From an uncultured Desulfuromonadales bacterium (GTDB lineage: Bacteria > Desulfobacterota > Desulfuromonadia > Desulfuromonadales > Geopsychrobacteraceae): 6,470 bases of DNA. The DNA lies in contig CAMYNC010000181.1 of the NCBI GenBank assembly GCA_947259685.1, forward strand, positions 1-6,470, written 5' to 3'. The notes beneath the pieces are model-generated. The model was not told the DNA's origin and searched no databases. It was given only the letters and a program-made list of their open reading frames with translations. Of the stretch, positions 1 to 6,470 are shown in pieces; the first letter of the stretch is position 1, and every line of letters starts with the position of its first letter. Position numbers and translations under genes: made by a program.

Positions 1-91
1 CTTGATTGGGGCAACCTCCACCAGAAAATTGACGCCTCTCTTTAAAGGGCTTGCGCAGGTATCAGGCGCAAACCACTTACATAATCATCAC

Positions 92-113
92 TCCCCCCCG
101 GGGGATTTTTTTT
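92..113 (+). terminator. Possible rho-independent terminator
   Basis: T-C7 is followed directly by G5-A and then eight Ts. A five-base-pair stem (T-A plus four C-G pairs) with a four-base loop can form at 92-105, with the T tract at 106-113. This is the classical order for intrinsic termination on the + strand. It would end transcripts entering from the left, outside the window. The stem is short and the homopolymers slip easily, so the call is moderate. Confidence 0.45.
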
Positions 114-129
114 CCACGTAAAGCGGGAC

Positions 130-209
130 GTTCGTGCAGAACGTGCATTAGTAAGTTCATTGTTACCACAAACTTCTCTCGGGTGTCACAATGCAATTTC
201 TGCACGAAC
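130..209. repeat. 20-bp inverted repeat with 40-base spacer
   Basis: The arms at 130-149 and 190-209 are reverse complements at 18 of 20 positions. The outer 12 bases, GTTCGTGCAGAA / TTCTGCACGAAC, match perfectly, and the inner TGCATT / AATGCA also matches. CGG/CCG pairing may extend the stem outward past a small bulge. The 40-base spacer contains a smaller hairpin (GTAA...TTAC at 151-166). No T tract follows, so it is not an obvious terminator. It could be a MITE-like remnant, a protein binding site or a structured RNA. Confidence 0.65.
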
Positions 210-218
210 CCGGTATTT

Positions 219-271
219 GAAATAAGTGCAACAGAGATTTAACCCCGATGAAATAAGGGCAACAAAGATTT
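219..271. repeat. 22-bp direct repeat, 31-bp period
   Basis: GAAATAAGTGCAACAGAGAT-TT (219-240) recurs as GAAATAAGGGCAACAAAGAT-TT (250-271). Twenty of 22 positions match and the two copies are separated by nine bases. The second copy can also fold, because ATGAAAT (248-254) pairs with ATTTCAT (268-274), flanked by CCC and GGG. The cause is probably a local duplication. I see no function. Confidence 0.65.
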
Positions 272-273
272 CA

Positions 274-309
274 TTGGGCAGGTTGGGCAGGTTGGGCAGG
301 TTGGGCAGG
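274..309. repeat. Tandem array, four copies of TTGGGCAGG
   Basis: Four perfect head-to-tail copies of the 9-bp unit TTGGGCAGG fill 274-309. The perfect identity suggests recent slippage expansion. The frame is open on both strands through the array, which is why spurious short ORFs appear here. A related dispersed motif follows it directly. Confidence 0.95.
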
Positions 310-331
310 CAGAGACGCGGAGAGCGCAGAG
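310..331 (+). repeat. Dispersed CAGAG-type repeat, copy 1
   Basis: CAGAGACGCGGAGAGCGCAG-AG directly abuts the 9-bp array. A diverged copy in the same orientation lies at 1275-1295, on the other side of the toxin-antitoxin pair, with about 16 of the first 20 positions matching. I know this purine-rich motif as a common intergenic repeat in Desulfobacterota-like genomes, but that is recollection and not something tested here. Confidence 0.55.
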
Positions 332-465
332 AAATATTAAGGGCAGACATTCCAAGGGACAGGGAGGGCGGCAAAGGAAAACGCAGCTTCTACCCCGCAA
401 GATTTGGTCTCTGGAGCTGAATTCAGCAGGACAGAAACAAACCGATCAGACGAGGGACCCGCCGT

Positions 466-489
466 AGCCCTTCGATAAGCTCAGAACTG
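466..489 (+). repeat. Dispersed CCCTTCGAyAAGCTCAG-type repeat
   Basis: AGCCCTTCGATAAGCTCAGA closely resembles a short intergenic motif (CCCTTCGACAAGCTCAGG) that I know from many environmental bacterial genomes, often as one arm of an inverted pair. Only one arm is present here, just upstream of the vapBC promoter. Its function is unknown. Confidence 0.45.
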
Positions 490-536
490 TGGCGCGGCAG
501 GCCAGTTCGGCAGAAATTCTTGGTTGAATATCATTT

Positions 537-568
537 CATACTTGACATGTTGTAAACATGAAAGTATG
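537..568. promoter_or_regulatory. Large palindromic operator over the vapBC promoter
   Basis: A 32-base imperfect palindrome: CATACTT-GA-CATGTT (537-551), spacer GTA, then AACATG-A-AAGTATG (555-568). The arms pair at 13 positions with one extra base on the left. It covers the -35 box, the spacer and the first half of the -10 box. A further half-site, AACATGTC (574-581), is the exact reverse complement of GACATGTT (544-551) and overlaps the vapB start codon. The ACATGT cores sit 30 bases apart, about three helical turns. This layout suits autoregulation by a ribbon-helix-helix antitoxin dimer pair, which is usual for vapBC. Binding is inferred. Confidence 0.6.
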
Positions 569-570
569 CT
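542..570 (+). promoter_or_regulatory. Sigma70-type promoter of vapBC
   Basis: A perfect TTGACA (-35, 542-547) is separated by exactly 17 bases from TATGCT (-10, 565-570). The predicted transcription start, six to eight bases past the -10 box, falls at 576-578, essentially on the ATG at 577. No Shine-Dalgarno sequence precedes that ATG or the alternative ATG at 586, so translation of a leaderless or near-leaderless mRNA is likely. The promoter lies inside the palindromic operator, which fits repression by the antitoxin-toxin complex. Confidence 0.7.
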
Positions 571-576
571 TAAAAC

Positions 577-807
577 ATGTCTAAAATGATTCAAATAAGA
601 AACGTTCCCGACTCTTTGCACAGAAAGCTGAAGGCAAGAGCAGCCATTGAAGGAATGACGCTCTCTGATTATCTATTGGCCGAAATGCGGCATAGTGCAG
701 AGCGGCCGTCATTGAGAGAGCTTCGGGAAAGGCTGACCAAGCGCAGACCGATTTCTACAGCAGTTCCACCTGCCGATGCAGTGCGACAAGAGCGGGAGTT
801 GCATTGA
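577..807 (+). CDS. vapB: Antitoxin of type II TA pair (FitA/VapB-like, ribbon-helix-helix)
   Basis: A 76-residue protein predicted to bind and neutralise the PIN toxin encoded directly downstream and to repress the shared promoter. Residues 4-38 fit a ribbon-helix-helix DNA-binding fold: a short strand MIQIRNVPD, then helix LHRKLKARAAIEG, a turn, and helix TLSDYLLAEMRH. The basic, Pro-rich C-terminal half (about residues 42-76) is the part that normally wraps the toxin active site. Met1 (577) is used because it lies at the predicted transcription start. Met4 (586) is an equally possible start and would give the usual MIQIRNVP beginning of the family. Neither has a ribosome binding site. The stop codon overlaps the toxin start by four bases, so translation is probably coupled. 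The family assignment is strong; autoregulation is inferred from the palindromes. Confidence 0.88.
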   Translation: MSKMIQIRNVPDSLHRKLKARAAIEGMTLSDYLLAEMRHSAERPSLRELRERLTKRRPISTAVPPADAVRQERELH

Positions 808-1196
808 TTGTATTAGACGCGTCAGTAGTACTTGAAGTCCTCCTCCGAAGCCAAGTCGGATTAGAGATCGAAAAGCGCATTTTTTCTCCTCGAGAGAGTC
901 TCTTCGCACCCCACCTTCTTGATCTGGAAGTGGCTCAAGTCGTTAGACGCTATTGTGCATTCGGTGAGATCGATTCAGAGCGCGGAAAAGAGGCCATCGA
1001 AGATCTTAAGGACCTTCCTATCAACCGATATCAACACGATATTTTCTTGAACCGGGTATGGGCGCTCCGGCACAATATGACCGCTTACGACGCTGTCTAT
1101 GTTGCTCTGGCTGAGACGCTTCCTGCTCCACTTCTCACTCGTGACGCACATTTGGCTTCAGCTCCCGGTCATGAAGCGTTGATTGAGCTAATCTAG
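804..1196 (+). CDS. vapC: PIN-domain ribonuclease toxin (VapC family)
   Basis: A 130-residue PIN-domain toxin, the usual length for VapC. Members are Mg2+-dependent endoribonucleases that cut tRNA or rRNA when freed from the antitoxin; the target here cannot be told from sequence. The four acidic metal-binding residues appear intact: Asp5 (IVLDAS), Glu42 (LLDLEVAQ), Asp96 (TAYDAVYVALAE) and Asp114 (LLTRDAHL). The toxin is therefore probably active and not a relic. The start is TTG at 804, inside the antitoxin stop (4-base overlap). It is supported by GGGAG about six bases upstream and by the family's typical opening hydrophobic strand ending in Asp5. The weak start codon should keep toxin below antitoxin. 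No clear terminator follows; a weak AATAC/GTATT hairpin lies near 1225-1239. Confidence 0.92.
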   Translation: MIVLDASVVLEVLLRSQVGLEIEKRIFSPRESLFAPHLLDLEVAQVVRRYCAFGEIDSERGKEAIEDLKDLPINRYQHDIFLNRVWALRHNMTAYDAVYVALAETLPAPLLTRDAHLASAPGHEALIELI

Positions 1197-1274
1197 CCCG
1201 GATTCTGAGCAAATAGATTCACAAATACTGTAACGTATTATTTATTGAAACCCTGTTATTATTTGATCTCACCA

Positions 1275-1295
1275 CAGAGCCACAGAGAGCACAGC
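1275..1295 (+). repeat. Dispersed CAGAG-type repeat, copy 2
   Basis: CAGAGCCACAGAGAGCACAG resembles the motif at 310-331 in the same orientation, so the toxin-antitoxin pair sits between two direct copies about 960 bases apart. Directly after it comes a perfect hairpin, GCGGC-AAA-GCCGC (1296-1308). Confidence 0.55.
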
Positions 1296-1322
1296 GCGGC
1301 AAAGCCGCAACCAAATGAGCCC

Positions 1323-1379
1323 TTAATTTGCGATTGGTTCGATGCTAAGATCGCTGAAGGTGCGGGTTTCTGTGCTCAT
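1323..1379 (-). pseudogene. Tiny ORF with good ribosome binding site; possible truncated gene start
   Basis: On the - strand GGGAG (1386-1390) lies six bases before an ATG (1377-1379). It opens an 18-codon frame, MSTETRTFSDLSIEPIAN, that stops at 1323. The ribosome binding site is better than those of the larger genes here. The peptide could be the start of a gene cut off by later rearrangement, since repeat DNA begins shortly after the stop. The FSDL-x-x-x-P pattern is faintly like the opening of DEAD-box RNA helicases, but that is too short to trust. It could also be a leader peptide or chance. I do not recognise a function. Confidence 0.25.
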
Positions 1380-1412
1380 CGTCGTCTCCCGATAGGCAAA
1401 AAAGTAAAGAAT

Positions 1413-1457
1413 CCAGGCCCAAAGGACCTGGCTTTGGTTTGCCCCCTGGAAGGGGGC
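1413..1457. other. Two adjacent hairpins with an alternative pairing
   Basis: GCCCCCT-GGA-AGGGGGC (1441-1457) is a perfect seven-pair stem. Next to it CCAGG-c-CC / GG-a-CCTGG (1413-1431) forms a stem with one mismatch. CCAAAG (1419-1424) can instead pair with CTTTGG (1432-1437), which would break the second hairpin. Read on the - strand these lie 34-78 bases before the small ORF at 1379, like a structured leader. No T tract follows either hairpin, so they are not simple terminators. I could not match them to a riboswitch class. Confidence 0.4.
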
Positions 1458-1490
1458 TCTCCATGATCCTGCTCTGCTCAACATACTTAT

Positions 1491-1637
1491 GGAGTGTTGG
1501 AGTAATGGAGTATTGGAAAAACGAAGACCCAACACCGATCTTCTGCAACTTTAAACAGAGAGCATCGAGGAATCTCTGATGTATAAAGTGCATGAGTGAT
1601 AGACCATCACTCCAGTACTCCAATACTCCATCACTCC
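1491..1637. repeat. Inverted pair of GGAGTnnT 8-bp arrays
   Basis: The left array on the + strand is GGAGTGTT, GGAGTAAT, GGAGTATT, GGA (1491-1517). The right array, read on the - strand, is GGAGTGAT, GGAGTATT, GGAGTACT, GGAGTGAT (1637 down to 1606). The arms pair over about 26 bases with three mismatches and enclose 88 bases of unrecognised sequence. The same unit occurs at 3442-3465 and 4173-4204. Confidence 0.85.
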
Positions 1638-1715
1638 TTGAAACTGTTACAGGCAGAGCCATTTAACTCTGATCTGGCCCCGATGACAAGGATTCGATGC
1701 TGGAATAAAATCATT

Positions 1716-3167
1716 TCACCTGGGCCGAACAATGCCCAATTTTTTCATTCTGGATTCAAGGGTTGTCGGTTTTAACCCCAGGAGGTTGGCCGCGCCCTTT
1801 TGGCCGCTGACGCGCCAGGAGGTTTTGTTCAGGACATCGATAATATGGTTTCGCTCCACCACTTCAAGCCTCAGGTTTTTGTGCAAATTGGTGGATAAAC
1901 CGGCAGGGGGATTCAGTTGCAGAACTCTACCTTGACTGATAATCATGGCATGCTCGATCACATTTTTGAGCTCTCGAATATTTCCGGGCCAAGGATACTG
2001 CTGCAGGGCATCGATACTTTTTTGAGAAATCTTTTCGATAGCCTTACCCATGGGTTTTTCAAATTCTTTGACAAAAGCCCAAACCAGCAAAGGGAAATCC
2101 TCAATGCGGTCCCGCAGAGGGGGAACGGTGATAGAAAACACATTCAAACGGTAATAAAGATCTTCACGAAACCGACCGTCTGCTGCGGCCCTGGCAATGT
2201 CCCGATTGGTGGAGGCGATGATCCGAACGTTGGCACTGATCGTCTGAGGATTTCCCAAGCGCTCGAACTGTCCTTCCTGAAGCACCCTCAGGAGTTTGGC
2301 CTGCAGTTCCAGCGGAATCTCACCGATTTCATCCAGGAAGATGGATGATCCATCGGCGATCTCAAAACGACCGATTTGACGCGTCATGGCGCCGGTATAG
2401 GCCCCCTTTTCGCGACCGAACAATTCGCTTTCAAGGAGCGTCGCCGGCAGGGCCGCGCAATTTAGCGTGACCATCTGACGATCTTTGCGAAGACTTAATT
2501 TATGAATTGCGCGTGCCATTAGTTCCTTGCCGGTGCCGGTCTCACCAAGTATCAGCACCGTGGAGTCGGTTTTGGCAACTTGCTCGGCCTCGCTTAACAT
2601 TTTCCTGACAAGCTCACAATTGCCGATGATTTCTGCATGCTTGTGTTTGACTTCAATCTCTTTGCGCAGATATATGTTTTCTTGTTCGATCTGATCTTTT
2701 AATTTCTTTATTTCAGCCGTGCGTTTTTCGACAAGGTTCTCCAGGTGCAGCTGCATGTTGCGCAGTTCCATGTGGGTTCGCACCCGGACCAGGACTTCCT
2801 CCTCCTCAAATGGCTTGGTGATAAAGTCCACCCCTCCAGCTTCAAAGCCTTGGACCCTGTCCTGCACTTCCTGCAGCGCGCTGATGAAGATGATCGGAAT
2901 GTCACGCGTCCGCTCATCCTGTTTCAGACGCTTGCAGACCTCGAAGCCATCCATCCCCGGCATCCTCACATCCAGCAGGATCAGAGACGGGGGCCGGGCC
3001 ATTGCCGAATCAATGGCCAGTTGCGGCCTTTCCCCCGTGCGGACCTGGTAACCTGCTTGACCAAGAAATTCAGCCAGCAGCTTCAGATTGTGAATTTCAT
3101 CATCAACAATGAGAATGTCGACGGGGATGTCGCCGGCGGCATTTATCGAATTTTGGTTGGTAGGCAT
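1716..3167 (-). CDS. Sigma54-dependent response regulator (REC - AAA+ - Fis HTH)
   Basis: A complete 483-residue NtrC-family activator. Its receiver domain (about 16-135) has the acidic pair Asp22-Asp23, phosphoacceptor Asp66 (LILLDVRMPGMDG), Ser96 and Lys118. A charged coiled-coil linker (about 138-175) follows. The AAA+ domain (about 180-415) has Walker A GETGTGKE (208-215), GAYTGA (255-260) in place of the usual GAFTGA sigma54-contacting loop, Walker B IFLDE (276-280), arginine-finger region GRFREDLYYRLNVF and sensor II PGNIREL (394-400). A Fis-type helix-turn-helix closes the protein (about 435-478). Phosphorylation should drive ATP-dependent opening of sigma54 promoters; no target is visible here. 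The likely partner is the hybrid kinase upstream on the same strand. The ATG at 3167 lacks a Shine-Dalgarno sequence and a heptamer array begins eight bases upstream, which is odd. Domain calls are firm; the partnership is inferred from position. Confidence 0.96.
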   Translation of the reverse strand: MPTNQNSINAAGDIPVDILIVDDEIHNLKLLAEFLGQAGYQVRTGERPQLAIDSAMARPPSLILLDVRMPGMDGFEVCKRLKQDERTRDIPIIFISALQEVQDRVQGFEAGGVDFITKPFEEEEVLVRVRTHMELRNMQLHLENLVEKRTAEIKKLKDQIEQENIYLRKEIEVKHKHAEIIGNCELVRKMLSEAEQVAKTDSTVLILGETGTGKELMARAIHKLSLRKDRQMVTLNCAALPATLLESELFGREKGAYTGAMTRQIGRFEIADGSSIFLDEIGEIPLELQAKLLRVLQEGQFERLGNPQTISANVRIIASTNRDIARAAADGRFREDLYYRLNVFSITVPPLRDRIEDFPLLVWAFVKEFEKPMGKAIEKISQKSIDALQQYPWPGNIRELKNVIEHAMIISQGRVLQLNPPAGLSTNLHKNLRLEVVERNHIIDVLNKTSWRVSGQKGAANLLGLKPTTLESRMKKLGIVRPR

Positions 3168-3460
3168 AGAATCAAAGGTTCAAAGTTAAAGGTTCAGGGT
3201 TCAGAGTTCTGGGTTTAGGGTTCAGAGTTCAAGGTTCAGGGTTCTGGGTTTAGGAAAAGGTGTCAGGTGTCGGGTTTCAGCCCGCCCTGGTGCGATATGA
3301 CGGATTCTTACTGTTCGCTGCAAGAGATCCCAATGTTGTAGTATCATCCAGGTTTATATAAGGTTAGGTCTGGGCCAGGGGTGTCAGAAACTGCTGTGCT
3401 GGAACCTCATTGACATGGAAATGCTGCCCTCTGGAGCGGAGAGAGTGTTGGAGTATTGGA
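3168..3460. other. Repeat-dominated leader region of the response regulator gene
   Basis: No gene is seen. Bases 3175-3279 are a heptamer array. Bases 3280-3441 look unique, and I found no consensus sigma54 (TGGC-N8-TTGC) or convincing sigma70 promoter reading towards the regulator. The GGAGTnnT array begins at 3442. The regulator may therefore be transcribed from the kinase promoter through the intervening genes, or from a promoter I cannot recognise. Confidence 0.5.
3175..3279. repeat. Degenerate heptamer tandem array, about 15 units
   Basis: Reading 3175 onward in steps of seven gives AAGGTTC, AAAGTTA, AAGGTTC, AGGGTTC, AGAGTTC, TGGGTTT, AGGGTTC, AGAGTTC, AAGGTTC, AGGGTTC and TGGGTTT (to 3251). 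Then come the diverged AGGAAAA, GGTGTCA, GGTGTCG and GGTTTCA with the phase unbroken. The consensus is AGGGTTC. The array ends eight bases from the response regulator start codon, so it fills that gene's 5' leader. Slippage there could alter leader length or structure. Confidence 0.85.
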
Positions 3461-3465
3461 TTAGT
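3442..3465 (+). repeat. GGAGTnnT array at the 3' end of the split gene
   Basis: AGAGTGTT, GGAGTATT, GGATTAGT: about three diverged 8-bp units of the family also found at 1491, 1606 and 4173. The last unit overlaps the stop codon of the split four-helix gene (3461-3463). It is inverted relative to the array at that gene's 5' end. Confidence 0.65.
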
Positions 3466-3727
3466 CTTTTCCATATACTGCATTGCTTTCCTTGACAACC
3501 AAATGGTCAATCCAGTCTCCTCGATCACGCTTCCGTTCTAAGCTCTCCACGAGTTTAAGAAGCCCATTTTCCAATTTATAGGCCTGGGAATCAAGTCTTT
3601 CAAATTGTTCCTCAGATATCTGTTTTGCTTTTCGATAGCTGTAAAGCCCCGATACTGATTCTCCCAACGAACCGAGAGAAATATTCAGAAAATTTAGGTA
3701 TTCCTTAATCGAGCGACGGCAGTATCC
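3461..3727 (-). pseudogene. C-terminal part of split four-helix-bundle (S23 / IVS-type) gene
   Basis: Eighty-eight codons, from the Gly at 3725-3727 to the TAA at 3461-3463, beginning GYCRRSIKEYLNFLNISLGS. This matches the second half of the four-helix-bundle family related to 23S rRNA intervening-sequence proteins, where the conserved segment reads N-IAEG-Y/F-x-R-x-S and continues with a helix like FLNIALGS. The remaining sequence is strongly helical (EEQFERLDSQAYKLENGLL). There is no start for a full protein: in frame, the codon before Gly is Lys and before that the stop of the GIY-YIG gene. A TTG at 3665-3667 could start a 68-residue fragment but has no role I can support. The missing first half lies at 3998-4174, beyond the inserted cassette. 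Family members have no well-defined activity. Confidence 0.8.
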
Positions 3728-3730
3728 CTT

Positions 3731-3985
3731 TTACCCTGTTAAATAAGATTTGAGCCTCCTCTTTAAAAACATCTTCCCGTGATATGTCTTCAAATACTTC
3801 TCTCTTTTTAATGCATCAGCCTGAGATAGACATGCTTCATAGTAAATCAGTTTCAACGGTCCCCTGTCTCTGGTTGATTCAACAACTCCTTTAGTGTGCC
3901 GCTCAAATCTTAGCTTGAGATCTTTTGTATAACCCACATAGAATTTCATGTCACCTAAACTCTGCAAAACATATGTATAAAACAT
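3731..3985 (-). CDS. Small GIY-YIG nuclease-family protein
   Basis: An 84-residue single-domain protein of the stand-alone GIY-YIG type (UPF0213/YhbQ-like size). The diagnostic elements are present: YVL (5-7, the GIY position), YVGYT (16-20, the YIG position), Arg26 in LKLRFERH, His30, and Glu62 in LKREKYLK, the metal-binding Glu. All catalytic positions look intact, so DNA-nicking or cleaving activity is plausible. ATG at 3983-3985 is preceded by GAGG and AGGA, a good ribosome binding site that partly lies in the left terminal repeat. The last codons (LKSYLTG, stop 3731-3733) lie in the right terminal repeat. The gene sits inside a split four-helix gene on the same strand and in the same frame. 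Homing-type GIY-YIG enzymes spread by cutting empty sites, and this one may do likewise; that is inference. It could also simply be cargo. Confidence 0.92.
   Translation of the reverse strand: MFYTYVLQSLGDMKFYVGYTKDLKLRFERHTKGVVESTRDRGPLKLIYYEACLSQADALKREKYLKTYHGKMFLKRRLKSYLTG
3734..3754 (+). repeat. Terminal inverted repeat of GIY-YIG cassette (3' end of gene)
   Basis: CCCTGTTAAATAAGATTTGA-G. Aligned with the reverse complement of 3992-4010 (CCCAGTTAAATAGCTTGAG), 11 of the first 12 positions and the final TTGAG match, with a two-base length difference between. It encodes the last residues of the nuclease, so part of the conservation could come from coding. Confidence 0.7.
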
Positions 3986-3991
3986 TCCTAC

Positions 3992-4010
3992 CTCAAGCTA
4001 TTTAACTGGG
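3992..4010 (+). repeat. Terminal inverted repeat of GIY-YIG cassette (5' end of gene)
   Basis: CTCAAGCTATTTAACTGGG is the partner of 3734-3754. It carries the TAG stop that ends the first half of the split gene (3998-4000) and, at its inner edge, the GAGG ribosome binding site of the nuclease gene. It is non-coding for the nuclease, so the match to the other end is not explained by shared protein sequence. Confidence 0.7.
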
Positions 4011-4174
4011 CAAGTATTGCGATGTACAGGATCAGCTGAAGCAATCTGTTGTGAAGCAACCCGCTTCAGCTCAAAAGGAAAGGACCGAAAGACGTCATAC
4101 GTCAAAGCGTAATAATTGATTGCATCGTTCCACACAATCAACTTCTGATATCCACGGTTCTTGTTTTTTCTCAT
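3998..4174 (-). pseudogene. N-terminal part of split four-helix-bundle (S23 / IVS-type) gene
   Basis: A 58-codon frame from the ATG at 4172-4174, beginning MRKNKNRGYQKLIVWNDAIN and continuing through a helical stretch with FPFELKRVASQQIASADPVHRN. This is the first half of the four-helix-bundle family: a K-L-x-V-W-x-x-A opening helix, an F-P-x-E-L-x-x-x-x-S-Q-I turn, and then the segment that should run on into IAEG. After Asn53 it reads TCPVK and stops at a TAG inside the inserted cassette. The other half is at 3461-3727; joined with the three missing residues they would give about 144 residues. The start lies 36 bases after the kinase stop and overlaps the last GGAGTnnT-type unit, so it was probably co-transcribed with the kinase. 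Recognition of both halves around one motif makes the split convincing. Confidence 0.8.
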
Positions 4175-4204
4175 TACATCATTACTCCACTACTCCATCA
4201 CTCC
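4173..4204 (-). repeat. GGAGTnnT array at the 5' end of the split gene
   Basis: Read on the - strand: GGAGTGAT, GGAGTAGT, GGAGTAAT, then the diverged GATGTAAT whose end forms part of the ATG of the split gene. The array starts six bases after the kinase stop codon. It is inverted relative to the array at 3442-3465. Confidence 0.85.
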
Positions 4205-4209
4205 ATTTT

Positions 4210-6470
4210 TTATCCTTTTACCTCTCCAAGAAGGTCGCAGATCAGGCCTAGTTGGAAATTATCCGCAAGTGTTCGCAAGCCTTTGGCCGTATCCAGAGAC
4301 ACTGGTTCGATGCCTGCGATGACGGCAATGATTGCTTCCCTGTCCAGCGTCAGTGCCGCCTCACGCAGGTCCTGAAGCAATTTCGGGGGCAGCTCGGCCA
4401 GCATCTCGGCGGTAAGATTTATCCCCTGCTTCTGGGCCGTCACCGCGTCCCTGTCTTTGTAAATATATTTTATACCCAATTGTCGGGCCATGGACTCAAA
4501 AATCTCATGGTCTCGGAAGGGCTTGCGGACCACTTCATCACAGCCGCAGGCCAGAATTTCGTCATGCCGCTCTTCTAAAACAATGGCGGTGACCGCCACA
4601 ATCTTAACCGCCTCTCCTCCCGGCAATGTCCGAATTTTGCGGGTGGCCGCAAATCCATCCAAAACCGGCATACGCATGTCCATCCAGATAAAATGAGGGT
4701 GCCATTCCTGAAATATCGAGATCGCTTCTTCACCGTTATTTGCCTCCTTCACATGACACCCAATATTGGTGAGCAGGCTTGTGAGCAGGATCCGGTTCTC
4801 GGGCTTGTCATCCACCACCAGGAAGCGCCATTCCGGCTGATCGGCCTGCAGTCCAATAACTTCTGCTACGGGAACCCTACTGGGCATTGCTGTCCCTGTT
4901 TCAACCATTTGAAAGGGGATTTTGACTTTGAATAGCGAACCCCGGCCCGGGTTGCTTTCGATCGTAATTTCGCCGTTCATTATTTCCACCAGCGTTTTTG
5001 AAATCGCCAACCCCAACCCCGTGCCTCTTTCCATATTTTGGGCATGGTCAAACCTGACGAAGGTTTCAAACACCTCATCCAGTCTATCTTGGGGAATACC
5101 TGGACCACTGTCCTGCACTTCAAACTGCAGCATCACCATGTCAGGATCGTCCGTCATCGGTTGCGAGCGGCCGCGCAGCCACACGTCCCCCGTCTCGGTA
5201 GACTTTACCGCGTTGCCCAGCAGATTGATCAGGACCTGGCGCAGTTTGCCGTCGTCGCCCTGAACATATGGAGGAAGTGCCGGGTCCAGTTCGAGGGTGA
5301 AACGCAAACCTTTGCCCTCAGCCCGCGATTTCATCATCTGTCCCACTTCCTGAACCGTCTGGGTGACGTCAAATATTTCCTGCTTCAATTCGACGCGCCC
5401 CGCCTCAATGTTGGCCAGGCTCAGGATATCGTCAATCATGCCCAACAAGTGCTCGCCGCTGCGATTGATGATGTCCAACCGCCCATGTTGCTCAGCACTC
5501 AAGTCCGATTCACGCTCCATAAGGCGGGAAAAACCGAGAATCGCGTGGAGCGGGGTGCGCAGTTCGTGACTCATGTTGGTTAGAAATTCACTTTTGGCTT
5601 GGTTTGCCCTTTCCGCGTCTTCTTTGGCATCTTGCAATTCCTGGGTTCTTTGCGCCACCTGAATCTCGAGTTTATGGCTTCTGGTTTCAATCGCGCTTAC
5701 CCGCCAGCGGTATCCTCCGGCAAGCAGCCCTATGGCTACCACCACCATACTGATCCTGAACCACAGCGCTTCCCACGTTGGCGGGGTCACGGTGATGCGG
5801 ACCGAGGCGCCCTCCTCGTTCAAGATACCATCATTGTTGGAACCGATGACCCTGAAGACATAGTCCCCAGGGTCCAAATTGGTGTAAGTAGCAAAGCGCC
5901 TCGTGTTGTCTACCTCGTTCCACTCCGCCTCGAAGCCTTCCAACCTGTACTTGTAGCGGTTCTTCTCCGGTGCCCGATAATTCAGCACAGCAAACTCAAA
6001 AGAAAAGACCCGGTCCAGGTAGGAGAGGACCAGGTGGTCGGTCTCGAGGATCGATTCTTGCAGGACCGAGTCGCCGCCGATGGGGACCGGCTTGTTCGCC
6101 AGTTGAAAGTCGGTAATCACAACGGGCGGTATTTGAGGATTATCCACGATCTGCTCCGGGTAGAAGGCGTTGAAACCCTTGGCGCCCCCAAAGAACATCT
6201 CACCACTATTACTTTTATAGTAAGAGTTTACTGGTAAAAATGAATTGCCTTGCAGCCCATCACTTACATCGTAATTGCGGAAGGTTCCCGTCTGTGGATT
6301 GAATCGTGACAGCCCCCAGGTGGTATTGATCCACAGGTTTCCGCCCTCTTCATCAGGGGAGGCATCCTCTTCCAATATACCCCACACCGTATTGCTTGAA
6401 AGTCCATTCTTGACGGTGTAGTGGATAAATTGATCATTCTCACGGTCAAGTTTATCCAGCCCTCCCCCCA
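4210..6470 (-). CDS. Propeller-type hybrid sensor histidine kinase (5' end outside window)
   Basis: The frame is open to the window edge, giving at least 752 residues; the GTG at 6385-6387 is internal, not the start. Counting from the first full codon, residues 1-105 are the end of a Reg_prop beta-propeller ([18 protein letters not shown], then [19 protein letters not shown]). About 150-228 is a Y_Y_Y domain, 234-253 one membrane helix, and 255-295 a coiled coil. HisKA follows with His301 (SHELRTPL). The HATPase has an N box around Asn414-Asn419, G1 DSGPG (453-457) and G2 GTGLGL (482-487). A receiver domain has Asp553-Asp554, phosphoacceptor Asp597, Thr627 and Lys649. A helical tail of about 75 residues shows no HPt-type histidine. 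The propeller presumably senses a periplasmic ligand that cannot be named. All catalytic motifs are intact. The likely partner is the sigma54 regulator downstream. Confidence 0.95.

Follow-up and report, generated by a model that had tools for sequence, protein, structure and literature searches.

A GIY-YIG nuclease gene between covarying inverted ends: a candidate very small mobile element in a split four-helix-bundle gene and in many bacterial phyla

How does a small nuclease gene come to lie within another gene, at a conserved motif of that gene? The question is raised by contig CAMYNC010000181.1 of an uncultured Desulfuromonadales bacterium (NCBI GenBank assembly GCA_947259685.1), of which positions 1 to 6,470, the whole stretch analyzed here (“the window”), hold an 84-residue GIY-YIG nuclease gene between two pieces of a four-helix-bundle gene. 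We consider it likely (a probability of roughly 0.7) that the intervening segment belongs to a kind of very small mobile element made up of one GIY-YIG nuclease gene between covarying inverted ends. Comparison with relatives shows it to be a recurrent element with defined covarying ends, present in many phyla and at many sites; it has derivatives reduced to the ends, and its insertions leave a definite signature.

The split gene and the inserted segment

On the minus strand, the N-terminal piece of the four-helix-bundle (23S_rRNA_IVP-like) gene runs from its ATG at 4174 to 4015, where it ends at HRN; the 285-bp segment follows from 4014 to 3730, and the C-terminal piece, which continues from GYCRRS, occupies 3729 to 3461. 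The C-terminal piece opens with KGYCRRS right after the GIY-YIG stop and in the frame of that gene. Taken alone, the N-terminal piece has a weak Pfam match to PF05635 (E 0.009, under the cut-off). Joined with zero residues added (141 aa), the pieces match 3770 proteins at E 1e-3 or better; the best match among the 120 listed, P0121, has 144 residues and is 96% identical at 100% query coverage. Uninterrupted homologs of this length carry the PF05635 annotation, and P0121 reads HRN-IAE-GYCRRS across the junction; therefore Ile-Ala-Glu is missing in the window. The initial annotation had read the fragments as one gene lacking these three residues and had proposed the search with the joined protein, which confirms that reading. 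The C-terminal piece entered the P0121 alignment further downstream; the junction rests on the reading frames and the joined-piece search together. The window thus holds an insertion into one gene, with about six bases lost to judge by the codons, and the four-helix-bundle gene is evidently broken by it.

The element itself spans 3730..4014 (minus strand, like its parts), with termini CTTG-CCC ... GGG-TAAA; boundary analysis, which sets the limits 4 nt outside the core, corrects its length from the 288 bp first proposed to 285 bp. Its sole gene, an open reading frame (ORF) from ATG to TAA at 3731..3985, is intact as annotated and matches PF01541 with E 1.4e-13. In an alignment of 39 GIY-YIG sequences Y5, Y16, G18 and R26 are invariant and E50 is present in at least 90%, so that both the profile match and the characteristic Y..Y, R and E residues place it in the GIY-YIG superfamily. 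Its solved relatives by sequence are UPF0213 proteins (1zg2 and 1ywl), a defence library gave zero matches, and a structure prediction (mean predicted local distance difference test score 70.9) was not used further.

The left end, CTTGCCCAGTTAAATA (3999..4014), provides the stop of the upstream fragment (..TCPVK*), and the right end, TATTTAACAGGGTAAA (3730..3745), overlaps the GIY-YIG gene in its final codons and stop; both were placed by the inverted repeat and by end covariation. The imperfect inverted repeat noted initially is present (15 nt, 87% complementary), but alone it is weak: its best arm score, 9, was equalled by 43 of 1000 shuffles. It was therefore not taken as evidence by itself, and its significance is carried by the relatives, whose flanks so far exceed shuffled flanks that a chance origin of the ends was rejected.

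Recurrence, covarying ends and insertion signature

A profile built from 39 homologs led to at least 80 genome loci (556 of 580 candidate stretches were confirmed), which by their record titles, mostly those of metagenome-assembled genomes (MAGs), belong to Desulfobacterota, Bacteroidota, Patescibacteria, Cloacimonadota, Planctomycetota, Thermotogota and other groups. The carriers include cultured bacteria, such as Draconibacterium orientale and Psychroflexus. When 81 fetched loci (two viral) and the window were scored, both end motifs were found at 11 or more of 16 positions in 79 of the 82 and at 13 or more in 61; shuffled flank pairs reached 11/16 on both sides in 184 of 4100 cases. GIY-YIG genes of this type are thus found with the same ends in a variety of host genes, as the initial annotation had supposed they might be. 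Most gene-carrying copies are 280–300 bp long and hold the GIY-YIG ORF only. The core of their ends, CCCnGTnAAATA ... TATTTnACnGGG, is extended outward by 4 nt at either terminus, mostly TTCA/CTTG/CCTG and TAAA. The ends covary: of 948 stem cells 917 are paired, whereas 1000 row shuffles (a control that kinship among the sequences can inflate) average 842 and never exceed 858. Four pair types occur at stem position 1, four at position 4 and three at position 7. Two right ends misplaced by the scorer, those of L063 and L071, were retained, which lowers the paired-cell count.

Self-complementary ends extend to more distant relatives. Of 202 loci, 173 were non-duplicate and had enough flank to be scored. 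A score of at least 10 was reached by 17 of 26 loci at 55–65% identity (17 of 520 shuffles), by 14 of 26 at 45–55% (8 of 520) and by 4 of 39 below 45% (8 of 780). These ends differ in sequence, changing with the GIY-YIG subfamily. Viral contigs contain four GIY-YIG loci, two of them above 50% identity: L082 (IMGVR_UViG_2871698510_000001) has a 51%-identical gene with covarying ends ACCCCGTAGGATTT / AAATCCAACGGGGT, and L081 is without such ends. Phages and plasmids were rejected as carriers, as 80% coverage of the nuclease was reached by none of 50,697 phage and none of 72,556 plasmid records.

GIY-YIG genes in whose flanks no inverted repeats were detected, named by the initial annotation as evidence that would count against it, do exist at a distance (about 45–58% identity), many of them beside tRNA genes. 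Repeat-less genes adjoin tRNA genes at L148, L150, L151, L152, L155, L161, L163 and L164 and at many loci below 45% identity, and some apparently read into the tRNA gene, seemingly a second insertion habit of the wider family. Bacteroidota genomes also hold tandem arrays of equally scoring GIY-YIG genes (L351–L354; G785:C1:120132-122168, G681:C1:1384643-1385513 and 1733860-1734727, G602:C23:114736-115340), with spacings of 450, 323, 317 and 368 bp.

The nuclease tree mixes phyla: it requires 28 changes for 20 groups (minimum 19; shuffled mean 41.0), and one sister pair (support 99/94) joins MAGs of an Alphaproteobacteria member (L005) and a Brocadiaceae member (L006). Mixing is below random, and therefore descent or habitat also counts. 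The gene is under purifying selection in five close pairs, with ratios of nonsynonymous to synonymous substitution rates (dN/dS) of 0.075–0.12; of the other five among the ten lowest-dS pairs, three gave 0.27–0.38 and two, both with L033 (one codon longer and hence misaligned), gave 2.4–3.1. Over 374 pairs, misaligned ones included, the pooled median is 0.17, with 50 pairs above 0.5.

The insertions carry a common signature. Information content drops to background more than 4 nt outside the core on both sides of 139 elements; because the termini served to select and orient the rows, only the drop beyond 4 nt is informative. The outer 4-mers of 153 paired ends combine as TTCA/TTTA in 41 cases, as TTTA/TTTA in 8 and as TTCA/TTCA in one, and at least three further TTCA/TTCA pairs occur in the genome end-match lists. 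Twelve clear filled/empty pairs (from L057, L043, L004, L027 with three elements, L065, L076, L079, L092, L124 and L243) show no target-site duplication of the kind left by insertion sequences (IS) of the DDE type or by miniature inverted-repeat transposable elements (MITEs), and a loss of 3–4 bases, once 6 (by eye: 3, 3, 6, 3, 3, 4, 3, 4, 3, 4, 4 and 4). They amount to about ten events, since L065 and the 284-bp element of L027 represent a single duplicated site, and the same genome contains both L076 and L243. The empty counterpart of L057 is on the same contig and L004 was compared with a distant copy (70%); other pairs include GIY-YIG genes with and without a short copy, and members of a single transposase family supply several sites. 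At one transposase-gene site L043 has a GIY-YIG element, whereas L092 has a 98-bp element bounded by different ends; the loss at the latter was left out of the count. Of 47 rows in one filled/empty comparison 37 were dropped as element self-matches, nested copies or ambiguous (L030, L245, L247, L347), the remaining rows of the other are repeats without family ends, and the 33- to 42-bp copies of L027, L065, L274 and L276, with atypical termini, are not among the 12 pairs.

End-only copies and the question of the mover

The same ends also occur around no gene at all. In 20 carrier genomes the pattern TTNRCCCNGTTAAAT has 188 matches, the carriers' own ends included, versus 12 for the reversed pattern. 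Eighty regions, mostly around such matches and chosen partly away from known gene carriers, hold 81 paired-end elements: 75 of at most 180 bp, five of 270–290 bp and one of 323 bp, which takes in two neighbours (pairing was sought up to about 360 bp, and longer carriers could be missed). The 79 non-redundant short copies have two inner hairpins in 34 cases, one in 30, three in 3 and none in 6, with the loop too short in 6. In 28 of 73 short copies the inner part clearly exceeds shuffles in stability (z below −2); copies above 90 bp do not (median z −0.24). L124, L243 and L251 (the L076 locus) each have a 67–71 bp copy at the identical position within a GIY-YIG gene; a repeated 93-bp copy in genome G182 sits in longer shared flanks and was not counted as independent movement. 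Two elements with these ends lie at RNA genes: at L212 (G521:C62:38840-39360) a 123-bp element encloses a complete tRNA (Rfam 60 bits), with a second tRNA-like sequence and more hairpins downstream, and at L204 (G521:C9:2650-3350, about 235–241) an end-only double hairpin immediately precedes the start of a 23S rRNA gene.

In the elements examined, with ends up to about 360 bp apart, no transposase and no gene other than that for GIY-YIG was found within the ends, in agreement with the initial annotation. That the GIY-YIG protein is the mover we infer. The further suggestion of that annotation, a nuclease-driven element, stands at this strength, and several observations weigh against it. End-only copies occur in genomes in which no close GIY-YIG gene was found: G173 (12 ends), G182 (10), G135 (9) and others of the Desulfobacterota sample; G101, G032 and G185 likewise combine many ends with the lack of a close GIY-YIG match. 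In G173 a nearly unchanged 52-bp double hairpin recurs in 7 of 10 fetched regions. By hand count, at least three ends are present in 17 of 290 genomes without a GIY-YIG match of at least 70%, versus 5 of 7 with one, where the carrier's own element can supply up to two of the counted ends. One full element (L282) stands about 13 bp from a Y1_Tnp gene. The 84-residue protein is a bare domain in which no separate DNA-binding domain was recognised; most empty sites are homologs 70–92% identical rather than alleles of one strain, so that single bases are uncertain; the genomes are mostly MAGs; and no excision, circle or movement of the element was seen. Missing contigs, gene loss or another mover could explain the ends without a close GIY-YIG gene.

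Another mover is the substance of the explanation that survives best among the alternatives, although we regard it as unlikely: the nuclease would be a passenger, captured by one hairpin of a family moved in trans by some other enzyme, in the manner of MITEs or of the hairpin-forming doublets of repetitive extragenic palindromic (REP) sequences, the REPINs. The commonness of short copies, their presence where no close nuclease gene was found, their near-identity in G173 and the Y1_Tnp gene beside L282 all fit such a family. However, the Y1_Tnp genes of the REP-associated tyrosine transposase (RAYT) type do not follow the ends. Among 60 Y1_Tnp regions, a subset of such matches picked from end-rich genomes, a full element was found in one, on one side only, and any single end motif in five, which falls short of the repeat-flanked transposase gene that marks REPIN/RAYT systems; Y1_Tnp matches are present in 7 of 8 genomes without ends and were not found in 3 of 18 end-rich ones (G089, G462, G367). 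RAYTs were accordingly rejected as the mover. Also against a passenger are the lack of any other gene between the ends, the purifying selection on the GIY-YIG gene in close pairs and the change of the ends with its subfamily.

If the element is instead moved by its own GIY-YIG protein, that protein would cut both target and ends, and the fold of the ends would matter. The nuclease, which might act as a dimer bound to the paired ends or to a hairpin formed by them, would cut a short degenerate target and favour the conserved codons at the four-helix-bundle motif; the break would be repaired with the element in place and 3–4 bp trimmed. By analogy with REPINs, which are thought to be moved by RAYTs, end-only copies may be moved in trans.

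Target choice and likeness to known systems

The host sites include four-helix-bundle, PDDEXK_3 (GxxExxY-like), transposase and epimerase-like genes as well as intergenic places. Judged by eye from flanking frames, four-helix-bundle genes are the hosts of 22 of the 79 carriers, which sit there at the N-IAE-G motif or at GAN-Y, its counterpart; eight lie in PDDEXK_3 genes, four in transposase genes and two at the start of an epimerase-like gene, with many others intergenic. Pfam searches with ten host pieces returned PDDEXK_3 for two, DUF772/DDE_Tnp_1 for two and 23S_rRNA_IVP for six (two just under the curated cut-off), the hosts of the remaining carriers being assigned by eye; the labels GxxExxY, IS5 and epimerase are our own assumption from the motifs. 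All six of the four-helix-bundle C-terminal pieces tested begin at PF05635 profile position 48–49, and two metagenome proteins (P0062 and P0064) have the same kind of junction as a fusion. At L078 and L080, where the element stands at the start of the epimerase-like gene, a similar gene start is repeated downstream of it.

Across 15 four-helix-bundle loci the nucleases are 61–89% identical pairwise (median 0.71) and the host genes 22–67% (median 0.31; L016 by its N-terminal piece alone). The nuclease is the closer of the two in 104 of 105 pairs and the identities are uncorrelated (rho −0.09); with host identity so far under nuclease identity, joint inheritance of gene and insertion was rejected. 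Target class clusters on the nuclease tree (13 changes versus a shuffled mean of 30.2, with 0 of 200 shuffles as low), although none of the branches that count here has strong support. Recurrence at the motif and this clustering resemble homing, as proposed initially, but relatedness may partly explain them.

The recurrent motif in otherwise unlike four-helix-bundle genes and the clustered target class do recall free-standing homing endonucleases such as those of the T4 Seg kind, which insert, in cognate alleles, at the site that they cut; the conserved flanks would then be co-converted target rather than element ends. As outlined in PMC2988022, the free-standing homing endonucleases of T4-like phages (GIY-YIG Seg; HNH mobE and mobA) likewise consist of one nuclease gene, can split conserved coding sequence, as mobE and mobA do, and have a target class tied to nuclease lineage. 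Unlike them, the element has an 84-residue bare domain, end-only derivatives and ends that covary as pairs at unrelated sites, and the same ends occur in other genes, between genes and around no gene, which makes this explanation very improbable. Less credible still is an RNA-level element (an intron, an intervening sequence or a ribosomal bypass) that leaves the host gene functional: in RNA a long stem would arise from the ends, the host family takes its name from 23S rRNA intervening sequences, and insertion sequences with GIY-YIG genes and without introns are described from rRNA genes of the candidate phyla radiation (CPR; PMC11270868), but the window has no Rfam match at the gathering score, either to a group I or II intron or to an rRNA gene, no intron family was found in 20 end-only-copy loci and no rRNA match in 20 Patescibacteria carrier loci, the broken-codon distance is not kept in frame (remainder 0, 1 and 2 in 7, 4 and 4 of 15 loci), so that in-frame read-through was rejected, and target bases are lost, so that removal of the element would not restore the gene.

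Those CPR insertions are alike by description in their small GIY-YIG genes, their lack of introns and their occurrence in Patescibacteria. REPIN/RAYT systems, as presented in PMC3116915, share short palindromic hairpins dispersed in bacterial genomes and, by analogy, gene-carrying relatives; unlike theirs, the gene of the element is a GIY-YIG nuclease and not a Y1/HuH transposase. With MITEs and DDE insertion sequences the element shares terminal inverted repeats, short gene-less copies and nested insertion, but no DDE gene was found between its ends, no target-site duplication was seen, and 3–4 target bases are lost. Its end sequences, we take it, differ from REPs. The double-hairpin elements of fungal mitochondria are short and fold into two adjacent hairpins, in which they are alike; the element differs in being bacterial, in its shared outer stem and in its gene-carrying relative.

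Elsewhere in the window, an outer inverted repeat (arms at 3443..3463, GAGTGTTGGAGTATTGGATTA, and 4183..4203, from a repeat search) adjoins the four-helix-bundle gene and may be a separate host repeat. These TGGAGTnn repeats have a second place at 1480–1517 and 1611–1648 and may be a further hairpin repeat; among the fetched loci, L229 alone has the exact TGGAGTnnTGGAGT form. A ribbon-helix-helix antitoxin-like and PIN-domain gene pair at 577–1196 is apparently unrelated to the element.

We know of no class in which a bare GIY-YIG domain is the only enzyme between terminal inverted repeats. The initial annotation had suggested an undescribed class, and no description was found in the open-access papers searched, with preprints and most subscription papers outside the scope; in that literature the end sequences occur only in unrelated papers. 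We see even odds that these elements form a new autonomous class, whose transposase would be a lone GIY-YIG domain of some 84 residues that recognises paired or hairpin ends and also moves end-only double hairpins, with short degenerate targets, 3–4 bp lost, no duplication, several end subfamilies and many phyla. If so, they would be among the smallest autonomous mobile elements. They could explain many of the small “GIY-YIG nuclease family protein” genes of Patescibacteria, Bacteroidota and Desulfobacterota, and short palindromic repeats in the same groups as well, and the natural filled and empty sites make the mechanism directly testable.
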